From IMG/VR virus record IMGVR_UViG_3300025132_000138, positions 1-34,524 of that record: 34,524 nt of DNA; one strand, written 5' to 3'. Made by a program: the position numbers and the translations under genes. The notes under the pieces were generated by a model that ran no database searches, was not told the origin of the DNA, and was given only the letters and a program-made list of their open reading frames with translations. Positions 19,344-34,049 of this stretch are shown here, piece by piece. Within the stretch, counting starts at the first letter, position 1; each line of letters begins with the position of its first letter. This DNA comes from a virus.

Positions 19344-20996
19344 TCATCGATAGTCCCACATATAAGAACTATCTCCATATTCATCTGTATGCCATCTATC
19401 CCCATCCTTATCAACAAAACTATCCATATCATCAAATCCATCTGAAATAAAACCAAAAGGTGCCATGTCTTGTTCTATGGCATTTTTTTGTTCTTCATAT
19501 ATTCTCTTTCTTACATCTTGATCAGTCATCTCTTTGAAATAATCTTGTGCGACTAACCAAGCAAATATAACTAAGCACATTGCCAAATCATCATTACATC
19601 CTTCTTCTGCCTCAAATGAATTATGTTTTTGGGAAAATGTGGTTAATTCTGAAATAATATCATAATCGCAAGTTAATATTTTATCATCCTCTAATAGAGT
19701 TTTTAAATTAGAACATCCTAATTTTTTAACAGCAGATGTCATTCTTACACCCAGCTGAGTTTTTTTACCAGAAAATCCTTGACCTACTACTTGACCATTT
19801 CTTCCCCTCATTGTAGCCATAAGAATATTATCATATTCTAAATCGTATTGAAGAATACTTGCAACCTGATCACCAATATCATTAACCTCTATTAATAAAA
19901 ATGCTTGATTATACGCCTTAGCAATATCATGAATAATATTTGGGTACAACATAGGTTTTATCTCATTGTTTCTATATTTTGCTACGATTTTGTATGGAAA
20001 CTCTGTTGTATCAAAAACTATAAATGCCGAATAATCATTACCAAGTCCTCGTGCAACATCAACCGTAATTATATAATTATGGTCTTTAACTGGATTTTCG
20101 TAAATATCAAGACCAGCATTTCGTTGAATGGGATTTTCATATACTAAATTTTTGAGTTTTGTTGGACTAATAAGAGTATTAACGGATCCTAAAAATTCAC
20201 ACTCAAACTCAATTTTAAATTGTTGTTCTGATGTGTTTGCAATTGTTTGTTCTTTCCATACAGCATCTCTACCAGGAACTTCAGACCAATGAACATCAGT
20301 GGGAACATATTCATTTTTACCCCTTTCACTATCGTGCCACATGCGATAAAAGTGATTCATACCCCTTGGGGTTGAAACTATAATAACTTTGGTTGACTGT
20401 CCAGATGTAATCGTAGGATAAACTGATGCAAAGAAATCATCGGCAATATGATTTGGAATGAATGCAAACTCATCAAGGAATATTACGTTATAAGAACCAC
20501 CACGAACAGCAGATGATGAGGTGGAGTTTGCTGATATCTTAGAACCGTTCTCCAATTCTAAAGAACCTTTGTTCCAAGATATTATACCTTGTTGCATCCA
20601 TGTAGGTAAATTTTCATATGCGAGTTGTAATCTACCAAGTAAATCTCTAGCCGTGGATGCTTTGTTTGCCAGAACAGCAATATTGACATTATCATTAAAA
20701 ACTGCATAGTGTAAAAGATATGATATACAAGTTGTAGATTTACCTGTCTGACGAGGCATCTTACATATATTAAATCTATTTTCATGAAATCTTTTAATCA
20801 ACTTCTCTTGAAAATCATACATATCAAAAGGAACTAGTCCTTCATCAAGAGAGACAATTTTTATATATTTTCTAGTAAAATATATCGGATCTGCTTTACA
20901 TTTCAAAAATTCACGGATATTATCTTCCGTAAATTCTATTTGAGTATTTGCTTTTTTTAAATTAGGATTACCTAAGTAAACATCATTAGCAGACAT
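19344..20996 (-). CDS. 17: terminase large subunit gp17 (packaging ATPase/nuclease)
   Basis: 550 residues (T4 gp17 is 610). ATPase motifs: Walker A MPRQTGKST (80-88), Walker B VIFLDE (171-176), and the coupling motif STPRG. RNase-H-like nuclease residues: D313 in IITVDVARG, E370 in LLIEVND and D469/D470 in GCNDDLA. It cuts concatemers and drives DNA into the prohead through gp20. In most T4-like phages it directly follows gp16; here a 10.3-kb fibre cassette separates them. Identification is secure. Confidence 0.97.
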   Translation of the reverse strand: MSANDVYLGNPNLKKANTQIEFTEDNIREFLKCKADPIYFTRKYIKIVSLDEGLVPFDMYDFQEKLIKRFHENRFNICKMPRQTGKSTTCISYLLHYAVFNDNVNIAVLANKASTARDLLGRLQLAYENLPTWMQQGIISWNKGSLELENGSKISANSTSSSAVRGGSYNVIFLDEFAFIPNHIADDFFASVYPTITSGQSTKVIIVSTPRGMNHFYRMWHDSERGKNEYVPTDVHWSEVPGRDAVWKEQTIANTSEQQFKIEFECEFLGSVNTLISPTKLKNLVYENPIQRNAGLDIYENPVKDHNYIITVDVARGLGNDYSAFIVFDTTEFPYKIVAKYRNNEIKPMLYPNIIHDIAKAYNQAFLLIEVNDIGDQVASILQYDLEYDNILMATMRGRNGQVVGQGFSGKKTQLGVRMTSAVKKLGCSNLKTLLEDDKILTCDYDIISELTTFSQKHNSFEAEEGCNDDLAMCLVIFAWLVAQDYFKEMTDQDVRKRIYEEQKNAIEQDMAPFGFISDGFDDMDSFVDKDGDRWHTDEYGDSSYMWDYR

Positions 20997-21020: not shown

Positions 21021-21782
21021 TCATGATAACGTATATGTGTTATTAGTTACAAGAAAACAATATCTATTTGCACCACTTTGCATTCCTTGATTTGAAGAAG
21101 TTTCAACGTAAATGTAATGTTCTCCACTGTCACTCCCACTAGGACCAGTGCTACCAGAACTAGTGTAACCATCCCATTTGAACCAAGTTCCAGAGGAAGA
21201 GAAGGAATACACAGCTCCTCTGTCTATAACCTGATACAAAGACATTCCATTTTCAAAATCTGTAACGGCATTTGCAACACTACTGTAGCTACCAACTGCT
21301 GAATACGTTGTGCTCCACCATAATGTAGATGTACTACTACCTACTTCAACTAAACTCGTAGAACTTCCATTTATTGTCAAGCTCATATTATCTATGGCAG
21401 CATCGCCTCTAAATCCACTTACAGTTTTGTAATACAAAAATACTAGTCTTCCAGTTTCTCCAGCATAAGATGATAAATCTGCACTAGCACTTTTCCATGC
21501 ACTTGTTTCATCTGATTGTTGTTGTCCAGATAAACCCATTACACCACTACCATCCGCAGTAAAAGCTAATTCATTAAGAGTGCCTCCACTTTTAGCAGTA
21601 GCATCATCAGCCTGCTGAGTCTTCCAATATACTTTCAATGCTCCCATAGTATTACCATGCATATGATATTTCCAAGTAAAAGTAGCTGTTGTAGATCCAC
21701 CACCACCTCCTCCTCCACCACTCGAAACAGTAAAGGGTGGAATAGGTCCTGACATTCCAAGTAGTGATGAGATAGGAGTCAT
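21021..21782 (-). CDS. MAM-like domain protein with halves in permuted order
   Basis: 253 residues. After a short N-terminus and an eight-glycine linker (22-29), residues 34-139 read like the second half of a MAM domain: FTWKYHMHGNTMGALKVYW, then AWKSASADLSSYAG, LVFLYYKTVSGFRGDAAIDNMSL. Residues 175-235 read like the first half: DFENGMSLYQV, WFKWDGYTS, STGPSGSDSGEHYIYVETSS. The usual order is the reverse. MAM domains are beta-sandwich adhesion modules; here it most likely binds a cell-surface ligand as a fibre or tip protein. The start is six bases after the large fibre gene, so they share a transcript. Family call rests on motif memory. Confidence 0.65.
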   Translation of the reverse strand: MTPISSLLGMSGPIPPFTVSSGGGGGGGGSTTATFTWKYHMHGNTMGALKVYWKTQQADDATAKSGGTLNELAFTADGSGVMGLSGQQQSDETSAWKSASADLSSYAGETGRLVFLYYKTVSGFRGDAAIDNMSLTINGSSTSLVEVGSSTSTLWWSTTYSAVGSYSSVANAVTDFENGMSLYQVIDRGAVYSFSSSGTWFKWDGYTSSGSTGPSGSDSGEHYIYVETSSNQGMQSGANRYCFLVTNNTYTLS

Positions 21783-21788
21783 AATATC

Positions 21789-24700
21789 TTATGCGTAATT
21801 AACTTTATTACAAAGAGGAAGGAAAGTTGCATCGGCAGTTTTAAGTATGAAAAATGTGTATACATCATAACTACCACTTGCACCACCATCAGGAGCACTT
21901 CCCCCTAACCATTCTTCTGTAGCTGCACTACCATCTATCGTAATATTAGTAATCTTATCAGAAGTACTATCTGGTTTTATAATAACAACAACGGTGACAG
22001 AATCTCCTATTGCTAAATCATTATTAAGTCCATTAGTTGATGTAATATCGGGTGTTAAAGTACCACCATCTTCAGCAACACTATAGTATTGTACATTTCC
22101 ATCATCAATATTAATTCTATCTGATGCTATATCAGATAATTCATCATTTACTACATAAACTCTTTCAGATATACTTCCCTTAACACCTAGTTTTGTTCCA
22201 CTACTGGTTTGTCCTATTGCAATATGATCAGTAGAATTAAAAGGTCCTAATTGAATATCCCCATTAGCACTAACATCTATAGATGGTACACCTGATATAT
22301 CATTAACAGAAAATATAGAACCTGATGTAAGATTGTTAGTTACAGAGAATAATTGTCCTTCTGAACCCTGAATTACTAGTGCTGTAGATGCTGCACCAAC
22401 ATCAACAGTAAGAGTCGCATCAGATGCAGTAGTAGTTCCTATTCCAACATTAGTGGATGTATTAATACCAGTAGTATTAGTTTCCCAAACTCCAGAGGCA
22501 CCACCTCCTCCTCCACCACCAGTCGCATCTTCCCATTGTACAACTCCAGCTCCATCACTAGTTAATACTTGACCATCACTACCATTAGCGGATGGAAAAG
22601 TTAAATTATTAAGTTTACCACTGAATGAAGTTGCAGTAACAATTCCAGTAACATTAATACCATCACTGCTTATTGTTGTTCCACCACCAATTATTGCATC
22701 ACCAATAACATGAAGTTTTGCTGTAGGATTAGTAGTTCCAAAGCCCACATATTCAGTAGAACCAAAAGGTGCTAACTGAATTGTTCCATCAGCATCAACA
22801 TCTATTGATGGTACACCTGATATATCATTAACAGAAAATATAGAACCTGATGAAAGACTATTGGTTACGGAAAATAATTGTCCTTCTGAACCCTGAATTA
22901 CTAGTGCTGTAGATGCTGTACCAACATCAACAGTAAGAGTCGCATCAGATGCCGTGGTGGTTCCAATACCCACATTTGTTGATGTATTAATACCAGTAGT
23001 ATTAGTTTCCCAAACTCCAGAGGCTCCTCCTCCTCCACCACCAGAAATAGAAATATTACTAATTCCAGTAATCTTACCATCACTATTAACAACAATTTGA
23101 GCTACATTAGATGCATCACCATAAGTAGCCTCAGATGCACCAGTTAATCCTGTTAAGTTTGCACCAGAACCATAGAAAGTAGTGGCAGTAACTGCACCAG
23201 AAACCCATACATCAGTAGCAGTTAAAAATCCAACAGTAGAAATGCCAGTAACTTTTAAGTCACGAGTAAATGAAGAATTTGTGGTTACAATCCCAACTGC
23301 TAATGTTGATGTATTGCTAACAAGAGCATTACCTCCAGTTGGATTATTGGTTCCAATACCAACATCCCCACTTGACATGATGCGAACTCTTTCATCATTT
23401 GCTGTTCCAAATACTAAGTAATTAGAAGCAGCATTAGCAGTGATATATTGATCGTAATCACTTGTTAAAAATATTTTTTTGTCTGTGGAATTTAAGTGAA
23501 TATCTCCTGTTGTCGTTGTTGTACCAGAAACCCATACATCAGTAGCAGTTAAAAATCCAACAGTAGTAATACCAGAAGTTACCTCTAATCCACCAGCAGC
23601 AATACTAGCACCACCGCCAACCACCACAACACCACTTCGTGCAGTAACTACTCCTAATGAATCAACGTTTGTTACATCCTCATATGTAAGAACTCCAGTG
23701 AAGGTGGCACCAACTCCTACCAAATTACGTATTGTAATATCAGGAGTACCACTTAATCCAGTAGCAGTACCAGTTAAAGTTCCACTTAAGGTTGTAGCAG
23801 ATACAGAATTAATATTAGTTATATCTGTTGAATTATCTCCAACAATATTCCCATTCGCAGTTATATTATTTGTAACCGTTAATGAATCTAGAGTTCCAAC
23901 AGAAGTTATGTTAGGTTGTGCTGCAGTGGTAATAATACCACTATAAACACTAGAAGTTAATATTCCAGTAGATGGATTATACATTAATCCAGTATCAGAT
24001 TCTGGGCCTTGAACTCCAGTTGCCCCATCTACAAAGATTGGATATACTGTTTCATCTGTAGAATTATTTGCCTGAACTGTAATATTATTGGCATTTGTTA
24101 CATTGGTATCAGAAAAATAATGACCTAATAATGATCCTTCAACAACTTCTATTTGGAAAGAACCAGACCAATCTATTGATGATCCACCTGTTGAAGTAGT
24201 AGAAACATTATATACAAGTTGAAAATAATCATTTTCTTCACATGATAATATACCAGTGATAGCACCACTTCCAACATTAGTATATCCAGAACTCTCAAAT
24301 TCATGAAATATACCACCCTCGTTAGTATAGATTTGGGTTCCATTTTTCCTTATAAGCCAAACATTATTAACAGTACCTGAATCTTTACTAAGAGTTATTG
24401 TAAATCTAACTTTTGATACACCTGCTGGTATAACAAATCTACCATTAGTGGAATTATAGAAGGAATTTGTATCTATAGTAATACCATCATAATCATTTTG
24501 ATCTACATTATAATAAGAACCCGCTCCTGCAGGAGTCATATCACTGAAATATATTCTGGCACCAACAAATCTAATTGAGGATCCAACAGAGACTGTAGCA
24601 ATTTCATCATCGGAAACTGTGACATTGTTTGCAGAGGCAAAATCTATAGTTTTTGCATATCCAACAAATACTCCACCAGATTGAATACCAACACTTCCTA

Positions 24701-25322
24701 TTCCACTACCACCACCAGATGATTGTTCTACCCAAGATAAACCAGTTCCAGTAGAACTTAATACTGAACCTGCAGCACCTACTTGACTATTACCATCGGC
24801 AATTTGGGTGGCAGTTAGAACACCGACACTGTAAATACTCTTACTATTACCATCTAAGTCTCCACCTAACTGAGGTGTAGTGTCACCAACTATATGAGTT
24901 ACGATACCAGTTAAAGATGTATAAGGATAATTTGTGGCGTTTGTTAGATTAAAAGCTGGGGTTGCACTAGTCCCACCTAAATCTAATGTTATTCCACCAT
25001 AAGAAACACTCTTATTATCTAAAGCAGCATTAGGAATAGAGTTTAGTGTTGCACCAGAACCACTAAAACTAGTTGCAGTTATGATACCACCACTAGCAGT
25101 GATAGCAGTTCCTACTTTTAATATATCTCCACTAAAACTAGTCGCAGTTATGATACCACCACTAGCAGTGATAGCAGTTCCTACTTTTAATGTATCCCCT
25201 ACTGTTCCGATACCACTTATACTTAATGCGGTTCCGACTATTTTTGTTGCAGTTATGATACCTGCATTAACTACTTGTCTACTATCATCAATAATAGTGG
25301 AATTTGAAATCTTAATTGCCAT
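21789..25322 (-). CDS. large repeat-type fibre/adhesin with C1q-like domain, 1177 aa
   Basis: Begins MAIKISNSTIIDDSRQVVNA, a start typical of cyanophage fibre-like proteins, then a 23-residue unit (DTLKVGTAITASGGIITATS...) in tandem. A SLTGIVTHIVGDTTPQLGG block follows. Residues about 250-396 (RFVGARIYFSD to FQIEVVEG) have the strand pattern of a C1q/TNF-like trimeric domain. The rest consists of beta-repeat stalk modules of the NVGIGTT and LTVTNNITANGN kind, glycine linkers, and a distinct C-terminal domain (1040-1177). No S74 chaperone is present, unlike the neighbouring fibre. It is probably a trimeric tail or capsid fibre. A GATAAATA motif precedes it. Confidence 0.8.
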   Translation of the reverse strand: MAIKISNSTIIDDSRQVVNAGIITATKIVGTALSISGIGTVGDTLKVGTAITASGGIITATSFSGDILKVGTAITASGGIITATSFSGSGATLNSIPNAALDNKSVSYGGITLDLGGTSATPAFNLTNATNYPYTSLTGIVTHIVGDTTPQLGGDLDGNSKSIYSVGVLTATQIADGNSQVGAAGSVLSSTGTGLSWVEQSSGGGSGIGSVGIQSGGVFVGYAKTIDFASANNVTVSDDEIATVSVGSSIRFVGARIYFSDMTPAGAGSYYNVDQNDYDGITIDTNSFYNSTNGRFVIPAGVSKVRFTITLSKDSGTVNNVWLIRKNGTQIYTNEGGIFHEFESSGYTNVGSGAITGILSCEENDYFQLVYNVSTTSTGGSSIDWSGSFQIEVVEGSLLGHYFSDTNVTNANNITVQANNSTDETVYPIFVDGATGVQGPESDTGLMYNPSTGILTSSVYSGIITTAAQPNITSVGTLDSLTVTNNITANGNIVGDNSTDITNINSVSATTLSGTLTGTATGLSGTPDITIRNLVGVGATFTGVLTYEDVTNVDSLGVVTARSGVVVVGGGASIAAGGLEVTSGITTVGFLTATDVWVSGTTTTTGDIHLNSTDKKIFLTSDYDQYITANAASNYLVFGTANDERVRIMSSGDVGIGTNNPTGGNALVSNTSTLAVGIVTTNSSFTRDLKVTGISTVGFLTATDVWVSGAVTATTFYGSGANLTGLTGASEATYGDASNVAQIVVNSDGKITGISNISISGGGGGGASGVWETNTTGINTSTNVGIGTTTASDATLTVDVGTASTALVIQGSEGQLFSVTNSLSSGSIFSVNDISGVPSIDVDADGTIQLAPFGSTEYVGFGTTNPTAKLHVIGDAIIGGGTTISSDGINVTGIVTATSFSGKLNNLTFPSANGSDGQVLTSDGAGVVQWEDATGGGGGGGASGVWETNTTGINTSTNVGIGTTTASDATLTVDVGAASTALVIQGSEGQLFSVTNNLTSGSIFSVNDISGVPSIDVSANGDIQLGPFNSTDHIAIGQTSSGTKLGVKGSISERVYVVNDELSDIASDRINIDDGNVQYYSVAEDGGTLTPDITSTNGLNNDLAIGDSVTVVVIIKPDSTSDKITNITIDGSAATEEWLGGSAPDGGASGSYDVYTFFILKTADATFLPLCNKVNYA
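22270..23037 (-). repeat. duplicated ~240-bp stalk module inside the 1177-aa fibre gene
   Basis: Positions about 22270-22512 and 22795-23037 are nearly identical direct copies, 525 bases apart. Both encode SGVWETNTTGINTSTNVGIG, then DATLTVDVG, STALVIQGSEGQLFSVTN and NDISGVPSIDV. The few differences are mostly silent, which suggests a recent duplication or gene conversion. Confidence 0.85.
25059..25196 (-). repeat. two-copy 69-bp tandem repeat in the fibre N-terminus
   Basis: Copies at 25128-25196 and 25059-25127 encode 23-residue units of the form D(T/I)LKVGTAITASGGIITATS plus FSG. The 3' parts of the units are almost identical at DNA level, so slippage or recombination could change the copy number. 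Confidence 0.85.
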
Positions 25323-25358: not shown

Positions 25359-25366
25359 TATTTATC
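25359..25366 (-). promoter_or_regulatory. candidate late promoter before the 1177-aa fibre gene (GATAAATA)
   Basis: Minus-strand GATAAATA, 36 bases before the ATG, overlapping the end of the fourth LamG-like gene. It sits in the only real gap of the fibre cassette. Confidence 0.6.
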
Positions 25367-26081
25367 ATTCATACCTCTGTTTAGTTGCATCAAAGTTTAG
25401 TTTCAATTCTGCTTGTGATAGTGCTCTACTATAAACTAAACCCATAGAAACATCTCCATCAAAATATCTACTTCCACCATTATTATCTTGACCAATGGTA
25501 AATTCTCCAGCAGCATCATATGGAAAAGTTCCTGAATTATGAGTCGTTGTATTAGTTCCTGATGAAATTGTTCCATCCAATTTAAACATATAAAGAGTTG
25601 CTGCAGATGAAGTTACACTAACAGCACACATAACCCATTCATTATTAGGAATGGTAATACTTGCATCAAAATTCCAAGAAGCACTCTGATCTTCCCAATT
25701 ATATCTTAATTCATCACCACTATATACATTAAAATTAAAACACTGACTTGCTGGACTAGTTTGTCTACCAGATATTGGAGAAGCCCAAGTATCTTGAGTT
25801 CCATCTCTCTTTATCCACGCACTTATTGTGAGAGGTGGTATACTTACTTTTGCACTACCAGAAAAACTTACTGACTCATTACTTCCATCAAAAGTAAAAT
25901 AACCAGATACACCAGAAGTATGATTGGAAGCAGTCATATTTGTTAATGTTCCAGTAAAACGCTTACCACTTAAATCATTCCAAGTGGTTCCACTACCAGA
26001 ATAACTTTTGGTATTTGCTGCATCTGTACAGAAAAAAAGACTATCAGTAACTATTTTAGAAATATTATATTCTGTTGCCAT
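25365..26081 (-). CDS. LamG/concanavalin-like protein, fourth tandem copy, 238 aa
   Basis: It shares the frame of its three neighbours: N-terminal KIVTDSLFFCTDAANTKSYS, TWNDLSG, FDGSNESV; a central SAWIKRD and NNEWVMCAVSV; and a C-terminal YFDGDVSMGLVYSRALSQAE ending FDATKQRYE. This is the layout of laminin-G-like (LamG_3/ConA-type) lectin jelly rolls. Its likely role is sugar or surface binding as a receptor-binding module. The start overlaps the upstream paralogue by one base (TAATG). Confidence 0.8.
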   Translation of the reverse strand: MATEYNISKIVTDSLFFCTDAANTKSYSGSGTTWNDLSGKRFTGTLTNMTASNHTSGVSGYFTFDGSNESVSFSGSAKVSIPPLTISAWIKRDGTQDTWASPISGRQTSPASQCFNFNVYSGDELRYNWEDQSASWNFDASITIPNNEWVMCAVSVTSSAATLYMFKLDGTISSGTNTTTHNSGTFPYDAAGEFTIGQDNNGGSRYFDGDVSMGLVYSRALSQAELKLNFDATKQRYE

Positions 26082-26785
26082 TATAATCCATACCTCCCTT
26101 TAAGTGCATCAAAATTTTGTTTTATTTCTGCTGCTGATAATCCTCTATTATATACATTACATACTGAAATATTTCCTTTATATGCTTCACCACCTGTGCC
26201 ACTATCCGCATTTCCAATAGTAAAATCTCTTGCTTGTATACTTGCACTACCAACAGAAGGATTAGACACAAATATACCATCAAAATATGCTGAACATGTT
26301 GATCCATCCCATGCAATAACAACTTCATGCCATTCAGATGTTAATGTTCCATCAACAATACTATCAGCATCCCAACTTCCTCTTATTGATGTTCCTAAAT
26401 TAGTTCCCTCATAAGCAACCCATAGATTACCAGAACCACCAAATCCCCCTGCTTTTGAAAAAAGAGCATTTTTACCAGTATCAGATACATCAGGTTTAAA
26501 CCAACATGAAACTGTATAATAATAATTAGCAGCTGCATAAAATTCATATGCAGATGAATTTAAACTTGTTGGAAACACAACATCATCATTACTACCATCA
26601 AATACAATACTTCCACCATTATCAGAAGAAAAACTAGGAGACCCATATATTGTTCCATTAAAACCATTACCACTTCTATCAGTCCAAGTTGCTCCAGTAC
26701 CAGGATAACTCTTAGTATTTCCTGCATCTAAACACAATACAAGATTATCAGTAACTATTTTAGAACTATTATATTCTGTTGTCAT
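26081..26785 (-). CDS. LamG/concanavalin-like protein, third tandem copy, 234 aa
   Basis: N-terminal KIVTDNLVLCLDAGNTKSY, TWTDRSGNGFNGTI and VFDGSNDDVVF; central YYTVSCWFKPD and SEWHEVVIAWDGSTCSAYFD; C-terminal YKGNISVCNVYNRGLSAAE ending FDALKGRYGL. Same jelly-roll plan as its neighbours, but with divergent surface segments. A binding-head function is inferred. It starts by TAATG coupling to the second copy and ends by TAATG coupling to the fourth. Confidence 0.82.
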   Translation of the reverse strand: MTTEYNSSKIVTDNLVLCLDAGNTKSYPGTGATWTDRSGNGFNGTIYGSPSFSSDNGGSIVFDGSNDDVVFPTSLNSSAYEFYAAANYYYTVSCWFKPDVSDTGKNALFSKAGGFGGSGNLWVAYEGTNLGTSIRGSWDADSIVDGTLTSEWHEVVIAWDGSTCSAYFDGIFVSNPSVGSASIQARDFTIGNADSGTGGEAYKGNISVCNVYNRGLSAAEIKQNFDALKGRYGL

Positions 26786-27540
26786 TATAAGTTATACCTC
26801 CATTTCATAGCATCATAATTTTGTTTAGCTTCTGATGCGGTTAAAACTTTATTATAAATTCTACATATTGCTATTTTACCATCAAAAAATCTATCATTAT
26901 ATGATGACGATGATGTATTATCAACTAAACAACCTAAAAGTCTATAACTACTATCATAACCATAGTTACTAAAAGTTCCTGTTGATGAGTCAGTTTCTTT
27001 TTGAAGTCCATTTAAATACAAAACAAATCCATCACTAGTATCATAAGTTGCTATCACATTATACCACCTATTATTTTCAATACTATCGGCACCACTTCCA
27101 ACTGGACTATCCCAAGAACCCCCTATATTAATCCGTATACTCACTTCTTTATCATCATCAGTATCACCAAACAATACAAAAAAGGCACGATCTCCACCAC
27201 CAAAAAGCGTTTGAGAATACTGAGAGGTTGCTCCATTAGCAGGTAAATTATCAGCCTTAAACCAAAACTCTATAGTAAAATTGCTAGATCCATTGAATAA
27301 AGTATCATTAATATCACTATCTCCTGTGTAGGCAATTTTGGCATTATCATTCGTTCCATCAAAATCAAAAAATCCTTCACTATCAAAAGTAGCACCATCT
27401 ATTGTTGCATTATCACTATTTCCGAAACCACTTAAATCATTCCAAGTTCCACTACCAGAATAACTTTCAGTATTTTTTGCATCCAAATAAAATATAAGAC
27501 TATTATCTTTTACAATATTTGGTCCTGAATGACAAGCCAT
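26785..27540 (-). CDS. LamG/concanavalin-like protein, second tandem copy, 251 aa
   Basis: N-terminal NIVKDNSLIFYLDAKNTESY, TWNDLSGFGN and FDFDGTNDNA; central FTIEFWFKAD and NNRWYNVIATYDTSDGFVLY; C-terminal FFDGKIAICRIYNKVLTASE ending YDAMKWRYNL. The canonical LamG_3 pattern (D-G-x-N-D, W-Y-N-V-x-x-T-Y-D, L-Y-x-N-G) is clearest in this copy. TAATG junctions join it to both neighbours. Confidence 0.85.
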   Translation of the reverse strand: MACHSGPNIVKDNSLIFYLDAKNTESYSGSGTWNDLSGFGNSDNATIDGATFDSEGFFDFDGTNDNAKIAYTGDSDINDTLFNGSSNFTIEFWFKADNLPANGATSQYSQTLFGGGDRAFFVLFGDTDDDKEVSIRINIGGSWDSPVGSGADSIENNRWYNVIATYDTSDGFVLYLNGLQKETDSSTGTFSNYGYDSSYRLLGCLVDNTSSSSYNDRFFDGKIAICRIYNKVLTASEAKQNYDAMKWRYNL

Positions 27541-28241
27541 TATAATCCATACCTCCCTTTGTGTGCATCATAGTTTTGTTTTACTTCTGCTGCTGATAAT
27601 GCTTTTCCACCATATACTCTTACTTGGGAAAGTTTACCACCAGCAACCGCAGAAGCTAAATTATCAGGCTTCATTAATTCAAATGAATTATTAGTCCCTA
27701 TAGCACCAACAGTGCTTGAAGAAGTCTCCACCAAAGAACCATTTAAATATAATCTAGTTTTATTATCACTTCGGTCTAAAGTAAGCACTACACAATTCCA
27801 GTTATCTGCCCAAAATGAAGTGCTATAATTAGGAGTAAGATCTACATTAGTGCTACCATAAGTTGTTCTTGCTTCCACATTTCCACTATCAAATAACAAT
27901 AATATGAAAAATGATTCACTGTTGCTTCTCCAACCACCAATATGTCTGTAACCAGTAGTATCAGTAATCTTACACCATATTTCAAGACTACCACCATTAT
28001 CATCTATATTATCAATACTAAAAGAATCATTAGTTCCTTGATCATTTGAACCATCAAAAACTATACTTCCACCACCATCAGTGGAATCAAAAGAAGGTCC
28101 ACCTGTAAGTGTTATATCATTACCACCAAGCATATCGCTCCAAGTGGTATCACCATCAGAATAACTCTTGGGATTTGCTGCATCTAGGTATAATACAAGA
28201 TTATCAGAAACTATAGGTAAAGAAGAATGTATGAGTGCCAT
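27540..28241 (-). CDS. LamG/concanavalin-like protein, first tandem copy, 233 aa
   Basis: I choose ATG 28241 (MALIHSSLPIVSDNLVLYLD), which comes just after the stop of the coiled-coil fibre, over an in-frame TTG at 28274 lying inside that gene. Motifs follow the paralogues: TWSDMLGGNDITL, VFDGSNDQG, LEIWCKITD, WNCVVLTLDRSDNKTRLYLN, and C-terminal LSQVRVYGGKALSAAEVKQN ending HKGRYGL. A jelly-roll lectin-like receptor-binding role is inferred. The stop overlaps the next start. Confidence 0.82.
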   Translation of the reverse strand: MALIHSSLPIVSDNLVLYLDAANPKSYSDGDTTWSDMLGGNDITLTGGPSFDSTDGGGSIVFDGSNDQGTNDSFSIDNIDDNGGSLEIWCKITDTTGYRHIGGWRSNSESFFILLLFDSGNVEARTTYGSTNVDLTPNYSTSFWADNWNCVVLTLDRSDNKTRLYLNGSLVETSSSTVGAIGTNNSFELMKPDNLASAVAGGKLSQVRVYGGKALSAAEVKQNYDAHKGRYGL

Positions 28242-28245
28242 AATG

Positions 28246-31200
28246 TTATTCCAATTTAGAAATTCTTTCTTCAAGATTATCTATATGAGTTTGTTGTTCC
28301 TTAACTGCTTCTATTAATAAACCAATTAATCCATTATAATTAACCGTTTTTGGATCATCTCCCTGAACTAATTCTGGTAAAATATTTTCTATTTGATCGG
28401 CAACAACACCAAGTGCTGGTTTATTATCATGTTTCCAATTAAATGATACACCCTCAATCTGTACAACCTTGGCAAGTGGATCATCAATGGGTTGAATATT
28501 AATCTTGAGTTTTATATCAGATGTGGAGTTAAAGTCAGTTGCAGTTATGACACCAACACCATGTATTCCTTTAGAATTAAGATCTAAATATCCTCCTAAC
28601 TGAGGTGTAGTATCACCGACTATATGAGTTACAATGCCTGTTAAAGATGTATAAGGATAATTTGTAGCATCTGCCAAATCAAAAGCTGGTGTTGCATCAC
28701 TTTCACCTAATGCTAGACTTATACCACCATAAGATACTGTACTGTTTGTTAACTTACCATTTTCGATAGACCCTGCTAGTTGTGCATTAGTTATCTGTCC
28801 TGATAAATTAGTGGTGGCTAAATCACCGTAAAAAGTAGTTGCAGTAACGGCACCAGAAACCCATACATCAGTAGCAGTGGCAAATCCAACTGTTGTAATA
28901 CCCGAAGTTACATTTAATCCACCAGCAGCAATACTAACACCACCACCAACCACCACAACACCACTTCGTGCAGTGACTAAACCAACTGAATCTATATTAG
29001 TTACATCATCATAAGTTAGTGTACCACCGATTGATACATCACCACTTACACTTAGAGAAGTTAATGTACCTAATGAGGTGATATTAGTTTGAGCAGCAGT
29101 TGTCACTGTTCCTGCAGTCGTTGCAGTATCAGCATTACCAGTTAAGTTACCAGTAACATTACCAGTTAAACCACCTACAAATGTAGTTGCAGTTATAACA
29201 CCAGCATGAGCAGTGATAGCAGTTCCTACTTTAAGAGTGTCGGTTACGGTAGTAATACCACTTACTGATAGTGCGGTACCAACTATATTTCCTACTATAA
29301 TATCTGGAGAATTAATTAAACCTTTTGCATTTGTGGATGTTGATATAGTACCCGTTACAGTAGTACCATCAAATGTTAAATTAACACTTCCACCAAAAGA
29401 ACCACTATTATTAAACTGTATTTGAGTATTAGAACCTCCAGGTGTTCCTCCAGATGATTGTTCTATCCAAGATAAACCAGTTCCAGTAGAACTTAATACT
29501 GAACTTGCAGCACCAACCGATCCATTACCATCGGCAATTTGAGTAGCAGTTAGAATACCAACACCATAGATACTCTTATTATTACCATCTAAGTCTCCAC
29601 CAAGTTGTGGTGTAGTGTCACCTACTATGTGAGTTACAATACCAGTTAAAGATGTATAAGGATAGTTAATAGCATCTACCAAATCAAAAGCTGGTGTTGT
29701 ATCTTCTCCACCTAGTGCTAGAGTTATATCACCAAAAGATACGGTGTTGTTTACTAACTTATTATTTTCGATAGATCCTGCTAGTTGTGCATTAGTTATG
29801 CTTCCTGATAAATTACTGGTTGCTAAACTACCATCAAATGTGGTGGCAGTTATAATACCAGCATGAGCAGTGATAGCAGTCCCTACCTTTAAGGTATCTG
29901 ATATAGTTGCAATACCAGAAGCTACCTCTAATCCACCAGCAGCAATACTAATACCAGCACCAGCAATAACGTGTATTCCTTCTCTGGCAGTTATAATACC
30001 AATAGAATCTACATTCTTTACATCATCATATGTTAATGTTCCACCAATAGTCACATTTCCATTAAAATTGGCACCAGCAGCAGTTACAATACCTGTAAAG
30101 TTAGCACCACCACCAGCACTTACAACTTCAACATCACCTGAAGAAATTGAACCAGTATCAGCATTTAAAGTAATAGAAGCAGTACCAATAGTAAGAATAC
30201 CAGTAATTCTAGCATTTCCTTCAACAACCAATGCATTATCAGGATATAAACCACTTTGAATAATAGTTGTTCCAATACCAACTCTTCCTAAACTATATGG
30301 GCCATCAACACCTTGTATCCATGAATTTCCATCAGCATTTGATCCAAATGTAAATTTCTTTAAACTATCGTCATATCTTAAATATCCACCATCATAAGTT
30401 GATGCATTAGTAGCAATACCAACAATATCATCAAGATACTTTAACCGTGTTTCACCACTACCACCCAGTGTTGCTAATTGTTGTTGAACACGACTTACAA
30501 ATATTCTATAATGATCTTGTAATTGATCAAGAGTAACATATTTTTTATTAAGTGGGGTTAATGGATCTGAATTATCGGAATCTGGTGTTATGTTAATAAG
30601 ACCTTCATTTAAAAATTCTTTCTCATTAAATTTCTCAAATATTTCTTCAAGATATTTAACTTTCTTAGAAAGTTGAATATTTTTTTCTTCTAATTCATCT
30701 AAATTTAATTTATTAACTACTGTTTTAAATTCTTCATGAAAATAATAAAAATCATTTCTAATATCTTTTTTAACCTGTAAAAATTCTTGATTTTGTTCTT
30801 CTAAATTTTCTTTTAAATTTTTCTTACTTTTAGTAATTTCAATTTCTAAATCAGAAATTTTATTCTCTATATTATTTTTATGATCTTCATAAACTTCTAA
30901 ATCTTCATTAATAGATATCTTTAGATTTTTAACTTCTTCTGCATCAATTGATGATTTTATTTCAGATTCTAAAATATATTTTTTATATTTTGGTGCCTCT
31001 ACATCAACAAAATTATTAATTTTTTCTGCTAGATTAGAAACATTAGATTTTATAGTGGTAAGAGTTTTTTCATTAATACCAGTTACATCATTTTTTAATT
31101 TAATAATACTCTCTTCAAGTAAAAAAGTATATCCCATCATTGAATTATCAAGATCTTCTTTTTTAATAAAATCTTGTATTTCAGACTTAATATCTTCTAC

Positions 31201-31824: not shown

Positions 31825-32625
31825 TTAAATATCCTTTCCTTGTGTTGGACTATAAGTTTTATTATCTGAAAATTGCTCCCAAGTCTCACTAAAACCAAAA
31901 TCATCAGCAGGGCCAGCATCAGCAGGAACTGGGGTTGCAGTATATCTCATTTCTCTTTTAGCTGTCTTAGTATTAGTATCTGTGTATAAATCAGTTTGAA
32001 CTTTCTTAATAAGACCACTTGTAGATTCTGCAATAGGACCAAATAGATATGTTTTTGCAGTAAAATTCAATGTATATATCAACGCTCTTCTTGTAGAAAA
32101 ATCTCCTTCATAATCATCTTGAAATGCTACATTATCTAAAATTAAAGGGATATCTCTTTTTTCTCCGATTGATTTTACCAAATCAACAGTTAATGTAAAT
32201 GCTGGTTGAAAATATGGTAAAATTTGTTCTACTATTTGTAATGCATCATCATTTAATTTAGTGAATATACTTAATTCAAACCCAATATTATAAGGAACAG
32301 GCATATAAACTTTCTTTAAATTGGTTCCATCAGATGCTTTAAACGTTTGAGTTACACCTGCTTTTCTACTAGGATCATAACTAACAGAATTCATTTCAAA
32401 TGACATTCTTGGTAATGTAGTTTGAACTGGTTTATTTAAATCTGCTTGTTGTTCTAATCTTGCAAGAAATTTTTGAGCAGGGCCATAAGACAGTGGAATA
32501 TTAAGTTCACTATAATCTTCACCAGAAGAATTTTGATGTTTAATACTTATATCGTTAAAAACAGTACCAAAGGAAATGATAGTTTTTCTAATTATTTCGT
32601 GATAGTAATAAGTTCCAAGCATCAA
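31825..32625 (-). CDS. 15: tail sheath stabiliser / tail terminator gp15
   Basis: 266 residues (T4 gp15 is 272). MLGTYYYHEIIRKTIISFGT, FNDISIKHQN, IPLSYGPAQKFLARLEQQ and LPRMSFEMNSVSYDPSRK are characteristic gp15 blocks. It caps the finished tail and provides the head-binding surface. Two ATGs are adjacent (MMLG); the second gives the usual MLGTYYYH start. The gene overlaps the end of gp14 by four bases. Confidence 0.95.
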   Translation of the reverse strand: MMLGTYYYHEIIRKTIISFGTVFNDISIKHQNSSGEDYSELNIPLSYGPAQKFLARLEQQADLNKPVQTTLPRMSFEMNSVSYDPSRKAGVTQTFKASDGTNLKKVYMPVPYNIGFELSIFTKLNDDALQIVEQILPYFQPAFTLTVDLVKSIGEKRDIPLILDNVAFQDDYEGDFSTRRALIYTLNFTAKTYLFGPIAESTSGLIKKVQTDLYTDTNTKTAKREMRYTATPVPADAGPADDFGFSETWEQFSDNKTYSPTQGKDI

Positions 32626-34049
32626 TATGTACCAAATGGATTTGATTCACTAAAGTCGAGAATTGCATCAGCCTCTGACTCTATATCATCGTTCTGTGCA
32701 TATTTATCTGCGAACTCAGCTGTCTCAATATAATCAACAGTGTATTTTGATTCAGAAGTAGATCCTATTGCAACATCTCCAGATACAAAATTACCATTAG
32801 TTGATCCTAATTTGAGAATATTAGTATCTTTATCCCAACTCTTAACTCTACCTTTAGCACCAGAAACAGATCCAGTAACAATTTCATTAAATTGATATGC
32901 ACCAGAACCAGTTAATATTGGGGGTGGGGCAATTGTGGCAATTCCTGTTGCAGAGGTATATCCAATACCTGCATCAGAAATAAGTATCTGGGAAACAGTA
33001 TTAGCAGTGCTGACAAGTGCTCTTCCTACAGCAGTACCAATACCAGACGTTGGTGTATTGAAGTATACTATAGGTTCTGTAGGATATCCACTACCACCAT
33101 CAGTAATTGTTATTGTTCCAATACCAGAACCAGAAGTAACTAATAATGCAGTTGCTGCTGCTCCAACACCATGAGTAGTTGTTACTCCATTTGTTTGAGT
33201 TGTTGTTGCACTCACTATGGTAACAGTTGGAGTTTCAGTGTAACCAGAACCTGAATTTGTTAATAAAATTTCTTTGACAGAATATACGTTACTTACATTT
33301 GTGGTTATTGCAACAGCAGTGGCATTTACTCCTCCTGCAGGTGCAGTACTAATTGAAACAGTTGGAGTTTGTGTATAATCATAACCATCTTGATTTAAAA
33401 TAATATTTCTAAGATATCCTGACGTTGTAGTTACACCAAGAGTTGCTGTAGATCCTACGGAAATTAACTGTAATGATGTTATATAACCTTGATCTACTAA
33501 TAGATCATCAATCTCATTACTTGTGGTACTAAGTTGATCCCAACCACCCATTTCATCTTCAAGTTCAAAGAGTTCACACTGTAATTGATAAACATAATTC
33601 TTACCTAATTGATAAAAAGGTTTTTCATGCTCTACAAATTTAACCTCAAAAATTCTTTTACCTAATGGAAAATATATTAAATCTCCTTCACGAGGTCTAG
33701 ATGAAACCTCTATTTCACTAGAAGGTTGTGCCAAAAAAGGTGCAATAAAATCTTCAAATCTTTCTTTTGATATAGTTACTACTAATTCATCTTTTAAACT
33801 CATTCCAAACTTGGTCATGATATCACCAGCACCAGTATAACCTTCATAGGTGTTGACATATGCTTCTATGGCAAAATTATCATTGAAAGTTGAAGATTCA
33901 AGTTCTCTAAAAATTGTATCTTTTTTAACTATTTTTCTTGGAAGGTATGTTACTTCCACACCAAAAATTTTTAACTGTTCATTGATTAAATCTTGAACTA
34001 GTCTTTGTTCACTTTGAGACCCTTGTAGAAAATAAGAATTAAGAGCCAT
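32622..34049 (-). CDS. 14: neck protein gp14 with a repeat-domain insertion
   Basis: 475 residues, against 256 in T4. Residues 1-195 (MALNSYFLQGSQSEQRLVQD, VTYLPRKIVKKDTIFRE, KFGMSLKDELVVTISKERFE, YFPLGKRIFEVKFVEH) and the end (ESEADAILDFSESNPFGTY) are standard gp14. Between them, residues about 195-380 hold repeats of the GSGYT..PTV.I type, followed by a GAKGRVKSWD module. gp14 and gp13 close the filled head and connect the tail. The insertion may extend from the neck as a collar or whisker-like binding element. Coupled to gp15 by ATGA. Confidence 0.92.
   Translation of the reverse strand: MALNSYFLQGSQSEQRLVQDLINEQLKIFGVEVTYLPRKIVKKDTIFRELESSTFNDNFAIEAYVNTYEGYTGAGDIMTKFGMSLKDELVVTISKERFEDFIAPFLAQPSSEIEVSSRPREGDLIYFPLGKRIFEVKFVEHEKPFYQLGKNYVYQLQCELFELEDEMGGWDQLSTTSNEIDDLLVDQGYITSLQLISVGSTATLGVTTTSGYLRNIILNQDGYDYTQTPTVSISTAPAGGVNATAVAITTNVSNVYSVKEILLTNSGSGYTETPTVTIVSATTTQTNGVTTTHGVGAAATALLVTSGSGIGTITITDGGSGYPTEPIVYFNTPTSGIGTAVGRALVSTANTVSQILISDAGIGYTSATGIATIAPPPILTGSGAYQFNEIVTGSVSGAKGRVKSWDKDTNILKLGSTNGNFVSGDVAIGSTSESKYTVDYIETAEFADKYAQNDDIESEADAILDFSESNPFGTY
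32910..33467 (-). repeat. degenerate GSGYT..PTV beta-repeats in gp14
   Basis: About four or five imperfect units of 35-50 residues, each built as GxGYTxxPTVxI, a G/A-rich turn, then an I/V-rich strand (ILLTNSGSGYTETPTVTI, ITITDGGSGYPTEPIVYF, ILISDAGIGYTSATGIAT). They occupy the part of gp14 that T4 lacks. Confidence 0.75.

Follow-up and report, generated by a model that had tools for sequence, protein, structure and literature searches.

The window analyzed here comprises the whole viral DNA stretch of 34,524 nucleotides, and the open reading frame under study, which lies on its minus strand, is present as described earlier (Table 1). It is flanked by gp17 (19344-20996) and by the gene for a fibre-like protein of 1177 residues, and as the gp17 product is 90% identical to that of the Prochlorococcus phage P-SSM2, the window can be assigned to a P-SSM2-like T4-type cyanophage. 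The fibre gene and its small neighbor belong to a run of recognition-type genes located between gp16 and gp17, and such genes are abundant in marine phage islands (PMC3909814). In P-SSM2, which is the closest isolated phage, the variable genes PSSM2_126 and PSSM2_127 likewise lie between gp16 and gp17, and PSSM2_126 is Gly-rich (AY939844), but neither of the two encodes a MAM domain, be it permuted or normal. The ortholog in the contig L001 is flanked by matching neighbors, and its glycine run consists of five residues instead of eight, so that the length of this linker is possibly variable.

Some further features of the region can be compared between these close relatives. Upstream of the fibre gene, the window contains four tandem paralogs of about 240 residues each (25365-28274), all of which match the same virion PHROGs, and the one that was tested matched the lectin-like family Laminin_G_3; three such genes are found in the available stretch of L001. 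The fibre-like protein itself has only 520 residues in the very similar L001 (L001:2179-3741), with ends alike, which represents a large internal repeat contraction or expansion.

Table 1. Features of the permuted MAM gene and of the adjoining fibre gene
Feature	Position	Strand	Basis or remark
Permuted MAM protein, 253 aa	21021..21782	(-)	open frame; 82% identical ortholog in L001
N-terminal leader, residues 1-21 (MTPISSLLGMSGPIPPFTVSS)	21720..21782	(-)	leader recurs with other kinds of head
Poly-Gly linker, residues 22-29, 8 Gly	21696..21719	(-)	sequence, alignment
MAM second half (H2), residues 33-137, comes first	21372..21686	(-)	Pfam columns 75-153; local H2 profile 46 bits
Linker of about 35 residues, residues 138-172	21267..21371	(-)	unaligned between H2 and H1 matches
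MAM first half (H1), residues 173-253, comes last	21024..21266	(-)	local H1 profile about 30 bits; strand map
Repetitive fibre-like protein, 1177 aa, presumed partner	21789..25322	(-)	directly upstream, 6-nt gap
Fibre C-terminal motif WLGGSAP...ILKT...CNKVNYA, mark of pairing	21792..21911	(-)	tip gene directly next in 85 of 89 cases examined

Order of the two MAM halves

MAM domains are adhesion domains of animal cell-surface proteins such as meprin, A5/neuropilin and RPTP-mu. The Pfam model of this domain (PF00629, 158 columns, cut-off 26.4 bits) gives no full-length match above the cut-off to the window protein in its native order; only columns 75-153 are matched, by residues 35-136, with 24.5 bits (E 2.7e-5). 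A local profile of 165 columns was built from 21 normal-order viral MAM domains collected by the motif YHM[HY]GxxMG, and this profile detects H2 with 46 bits at residues 32-135 (E 2.5e-13) and, C-terminal to it, H1 with about 30 bits at residues 173-234 (E 2.8e-8). This agrees closely with the sequence-only reading, which had placed the second MAM half at residues 34-139 and the first at 175-235, and the order H2 before H1 is found in all permuted members. When the protein is rotated at any point of the linker, the two matches fuse to a single one over columns 10-163 with 81 bits, and the Pfam model then spans columns 17-153 with 31.9 bits, which is above its cut-off; the profile search with rejoined halves that had been suggested earlier thus yields one continuous match. 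In 200 controls with a shuffled H1, the score reached 54 bits at most and the gain from rotation was lost, which rules out that the halves resemble MAM by chance.

The same behavior was observed throughout the family. The rotation test covered 14 members, namely the window protein and 13 of the 14 other contigs, as one of the nearly identical L157 and L159 was omitted, and with the local profile rotation fused the halves in all 14 (for example from 36 to 75 bits in L060 and from 24 to 53 in L161). The Pfam score increased in seven of eight members tested, six of which pass the curated cut-off (native and rotated bits: L024 37.7 and 48.1, L048 21.3 and 29.0, L049 16.0 and 21.9, L060 34.0 and 41.9, L062 21.0 and 28.3, L161 18.3 and 28.9). 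L006 has no Pfam MAM match in either order, but is matched by the local profile. Conversely, an unrotated profile of the permuted family aligns to solved MAM structures (SR-C 8yt7, MDGA1 5oj2) in two pieces of swapped order.

Compared with a typical MAM domain (PF00629), the window protein thus has both halves, carries the motifs YHM[HY]Gxx(M)G and TGP...YxYxE, and agrees in the strand pattern of its model. It differs in that the halves are swapped, the ends lie in a mid-domain loop, the old ends are linked and the animal cysteines are absent. The linker at residues 138-172 connects the ancestral MAM C-terminus to the ancestral N-terminus, with all rotation cut points in or near it, and H1 terminates at the strand that in normal MAM domains precedes FTWKYHMHG. 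An AlphaFold2 model computed from six permuted sequences has a moderate mean pLDDT of 70 and a pTM of 0.76, with a disordered leader and confident first and last strands. The normal-order viral relative L015, which was modelled as control, reaches a pLDDT of 87 and a pTM of 0.86 and matches MAM crystal structures over the full length, best 8yt7 with a TM-score of 0.83 (E 3e-11). Through the rotated alignment, the strand patterns of both models agree with an MCC of 0.72, the best of 153 registers, so that in the predicted structure the window protein has the jelly-roll strand pattern of MAM after rotation; the new termini map in the model to the loop between the last H1 strand and the FTWKYHMHG (FxxKYHMHG) strand. 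Foldseek searches of PDB and viral models returned only half-domain MAM matches of low TM-score for the permuted model (InhA2 4yu5, neuropilin 5l73), which is to be expected of a search bound to chain order. Neither a fold unlike MAM nor two unrelated domains, which had been named as outcomes against the permutation, emerged, since rotation brings the predicted strands into agreement with MAM and MAM halves are present on both sides of the linker. We therefore think that the window protein is almost certainly a MAM domain with circularly permuted halves.

Distribution and origin of the permuted unit

The permuted unit is found in the window and in 14 other viral contigs, in a set of loci that was collected via MAM motifs and whose frequencies are therefore biased. 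It follows a leader in the window, L001, L006, L024 and L048, whereas it is C-terminal in L049, L062 and L157-L162, being preceded by SWM or other Ig-like repeats in L049, L062, L157, L159, L161 and L162, and it starts at residue 1 ahead of Ig-like domains in L059 and L060. The occurrence in such differing architectures indicates a domain in its own right that is stable and heritable, and the earlier suggestion of a permuted jelly roll is supported by a self-contained unit whose junctions are identical in all 15 contigs. A truncation at the gene end is excluded by L059 and L060, in which about 570-660 residues of other sequence come after the unit, and a sequencing or assembly artefact by the fact that independent contigs have the arrangement in common. 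In another cyanophage contig (L061:5001-8850), a permuted-MAM gene lies directly ahead of genes that were read by eye as psbA and psbD.

When rotated and normal sequences are combined in a maximum-likelihood tree, the 14 permuted members fall together with weak support (UFBoot 78, aLRT 38), and a core of 11 is recovered with UFBoot 100 and aLRT 98.9. The nearest sequences in this tree are the viral MAM domains L014, L021, L039 and L052 (UFBoot 99), which by contrast have H1 before H2 and other architectures. As the permuted members group together beside normal-order viral MAM domains, the sequences suggest that the permutation likely has a single origin within viral MAMs, even if this is not firmly supported. 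Tandem proteins of the type H1H2H1H2 occur in 22 ORFs among related loci, and the permuted unit may have originated by such a tandem duplication and subsequent loss of the outer halves; intermediate forms were not found among the gathered loci. The sequence-only reading had offered tandem units without their outer halves as an alternative to a permuted jelly roll, and this part may hold as a possible history, but not as a rival description of the protein.

Among 80 motif-selected bacterial loci, a clearly permuted MAM was found only in L069, which apparently represents the same phage as L048, and a cellular origin of the permutation was on the basis of this sample rejected. Normal-order MAM domains are not as uncommon in phages as had been assumed, since a strict motif scan alone yields about 45 viral cases. 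Four family members that were used as queries found no counterpart among the proteins of cultured phages in the collection searched, and the permuted protein matches no PHROG. More generally, ordinary profile and fold searches detect only half of most permuted MAM proteins, which therefore remain unannotated. Natural permutation is known from other beta-sandwiches such as concanavalin A; a permuted MAM is not described in the literature searched, which covered few subscription papers and no bioRxiv preprints. The coexistence of permuted and normal relatives makes direct tests of the effect of permutation on an adhesion domain possible.

Fibre pairing and possible function

The leader MTPISSLLGMSGP and close variants of it are also found on a propeller-like protein (L150) and on a Gly-rich protein (L151), and in L150 and L151 the leader-bearing gene lies at most 10 nt behind a fibre gene that ends in WLGGSAP...IIKT...NFA. 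A scan of IMG/VR for this fibre C-terminus gave at least 120 matches, and 89 readable cases were examined (retrieved loci and nine others). Among the matches listed, an ATG-started ORF follows directly behind the fibre motif in 85 of the 89 cases (82 distinct), mostly with gaps of -4 to 22 nt, and these tip genes commonly carry a leader of the type MPxLxxxGAASARGFG. By a motif that was defined after inspection of the sequences, a leader-like segment occurs in 60 of the 82 tip genes among the matches listed, compared with 15 of 527 control ORFs. The permuted members L024, L049, L059, L060 and L062 have no such fibre partner. In the loci L163-L242 and in the window, the gene directly behind a fibre C-terminus of the form WxGG[ST]AP-14aa-I[IL]KT combines a short leader, MPxLxxxGAASARGFG or a variant of it, with a head that varies greatly.

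From the conserved pair of fibre and leader-tagged gene with variable heads, a fibre with an exchangeable tip may be proposed that resembles the plan of gp37/gp38, and in environmental phages such pairs might represent a generic receptor-binding-tip system. As in T-even gp37/gp38, a small gene lies right behind the fibre gene and Gly-rich versions occur, and the adhesin of the PP01 gp38 type is thought to be located at the fibre tip (PMC12892980). The system of the window differs in that a common leader is combined with wholly different heads, and homology of its protein to gp38 is not indicated by any PHROG or Pfam tail-adhesin match. The window protein is predicted to be a fibre-tip adhesin, a role that we regard as rather probable.

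Other explanations concern either the fold or the function. The animal MAM cysteines are missing, with C242 as the single cysteine among the 253 residues, and InhA-like_MAM and choice_anch_J are weakly matched, which could point to a different jelly roll (an InhA-like MAM, a choice-of-anchor J or another Gly/Ser-rich beta-sandwich) that is MAM-like only in pieces. This is highly improbable, as rotation renders the MAM matches collinear, in six of eight members above the Pfam cut-off, and as the nearest relatives have a predicted MAM fold. Improbable as well, albeit not to that degree, is a domain-swapped oligomer, in which terminal half-domains, as relics of tandem MAM units, would complete MAM folds between neighboring subunits. 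The existing tandem proteins make duplication with outer-half loss a natural route to such half-domains, and trimeric fibres would bring the chains together, but the first and last strands are confidently placed already in the single-chain model, the unit is maintained in three architectures with no half-filled intermediates seen, and the linker appears ample to close the ring.

A permuted MAM domain could also serve as a capsid or neck decoration or as a fibre-assembly chaperone instead of a tip adhesin. The location between fibre genes and gp17 would be compatible with this, and small genes behind fibre genes can indeed encode chaperones, as is the case for T4 gp38. We nevertheless consider such a role rather unlikely, because the heads behind the leader vary from Gly-rich to propeller-like and MAM and look like adhesins, while conservation would be expected of a chaperone, and because the neighboring genes appear to be of the lectin-like Laminin_G_3 type.

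We thus hold with reasonable confidence that this P-SSM2-like T4-type cyanophage has a fibre-tip adhesin whose exchangeable head is a naturally permuted MAM jelly roll. The leader would dock on the C-terminal knob of the fibre, the Gly run would act as flexible spacer, and the MAM head may bind a glycan or protein of the host surface. The permutation would bring both ends to one loop, and by moving the anchoring N-terminus it could present another side of the jelly roll to the host; that such a reorientation of the binding face is the reason for the permutation is speculative. Only tentatively can the findings be extended to a virus-borne MAM permutation that arose once, was kept across unrelated architectures for its changed outward face and is one of many interchangeable heads in a two-gene fibre-tip system that is leader-tagged and widespread among environmental phages. 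If the leader-tagged tip pairing is true, it offers a route to the receptor-binding tips of many uncultured environmental phages.

Elsewhere in the window, an ORF of 475 residues (32622-34049) encodes a gp14-like head-closure protein, the C-terminal part of which matches tail-fibre and baseplate PHROGs, as though an adhesion-like domain had been fused to a neck protein.
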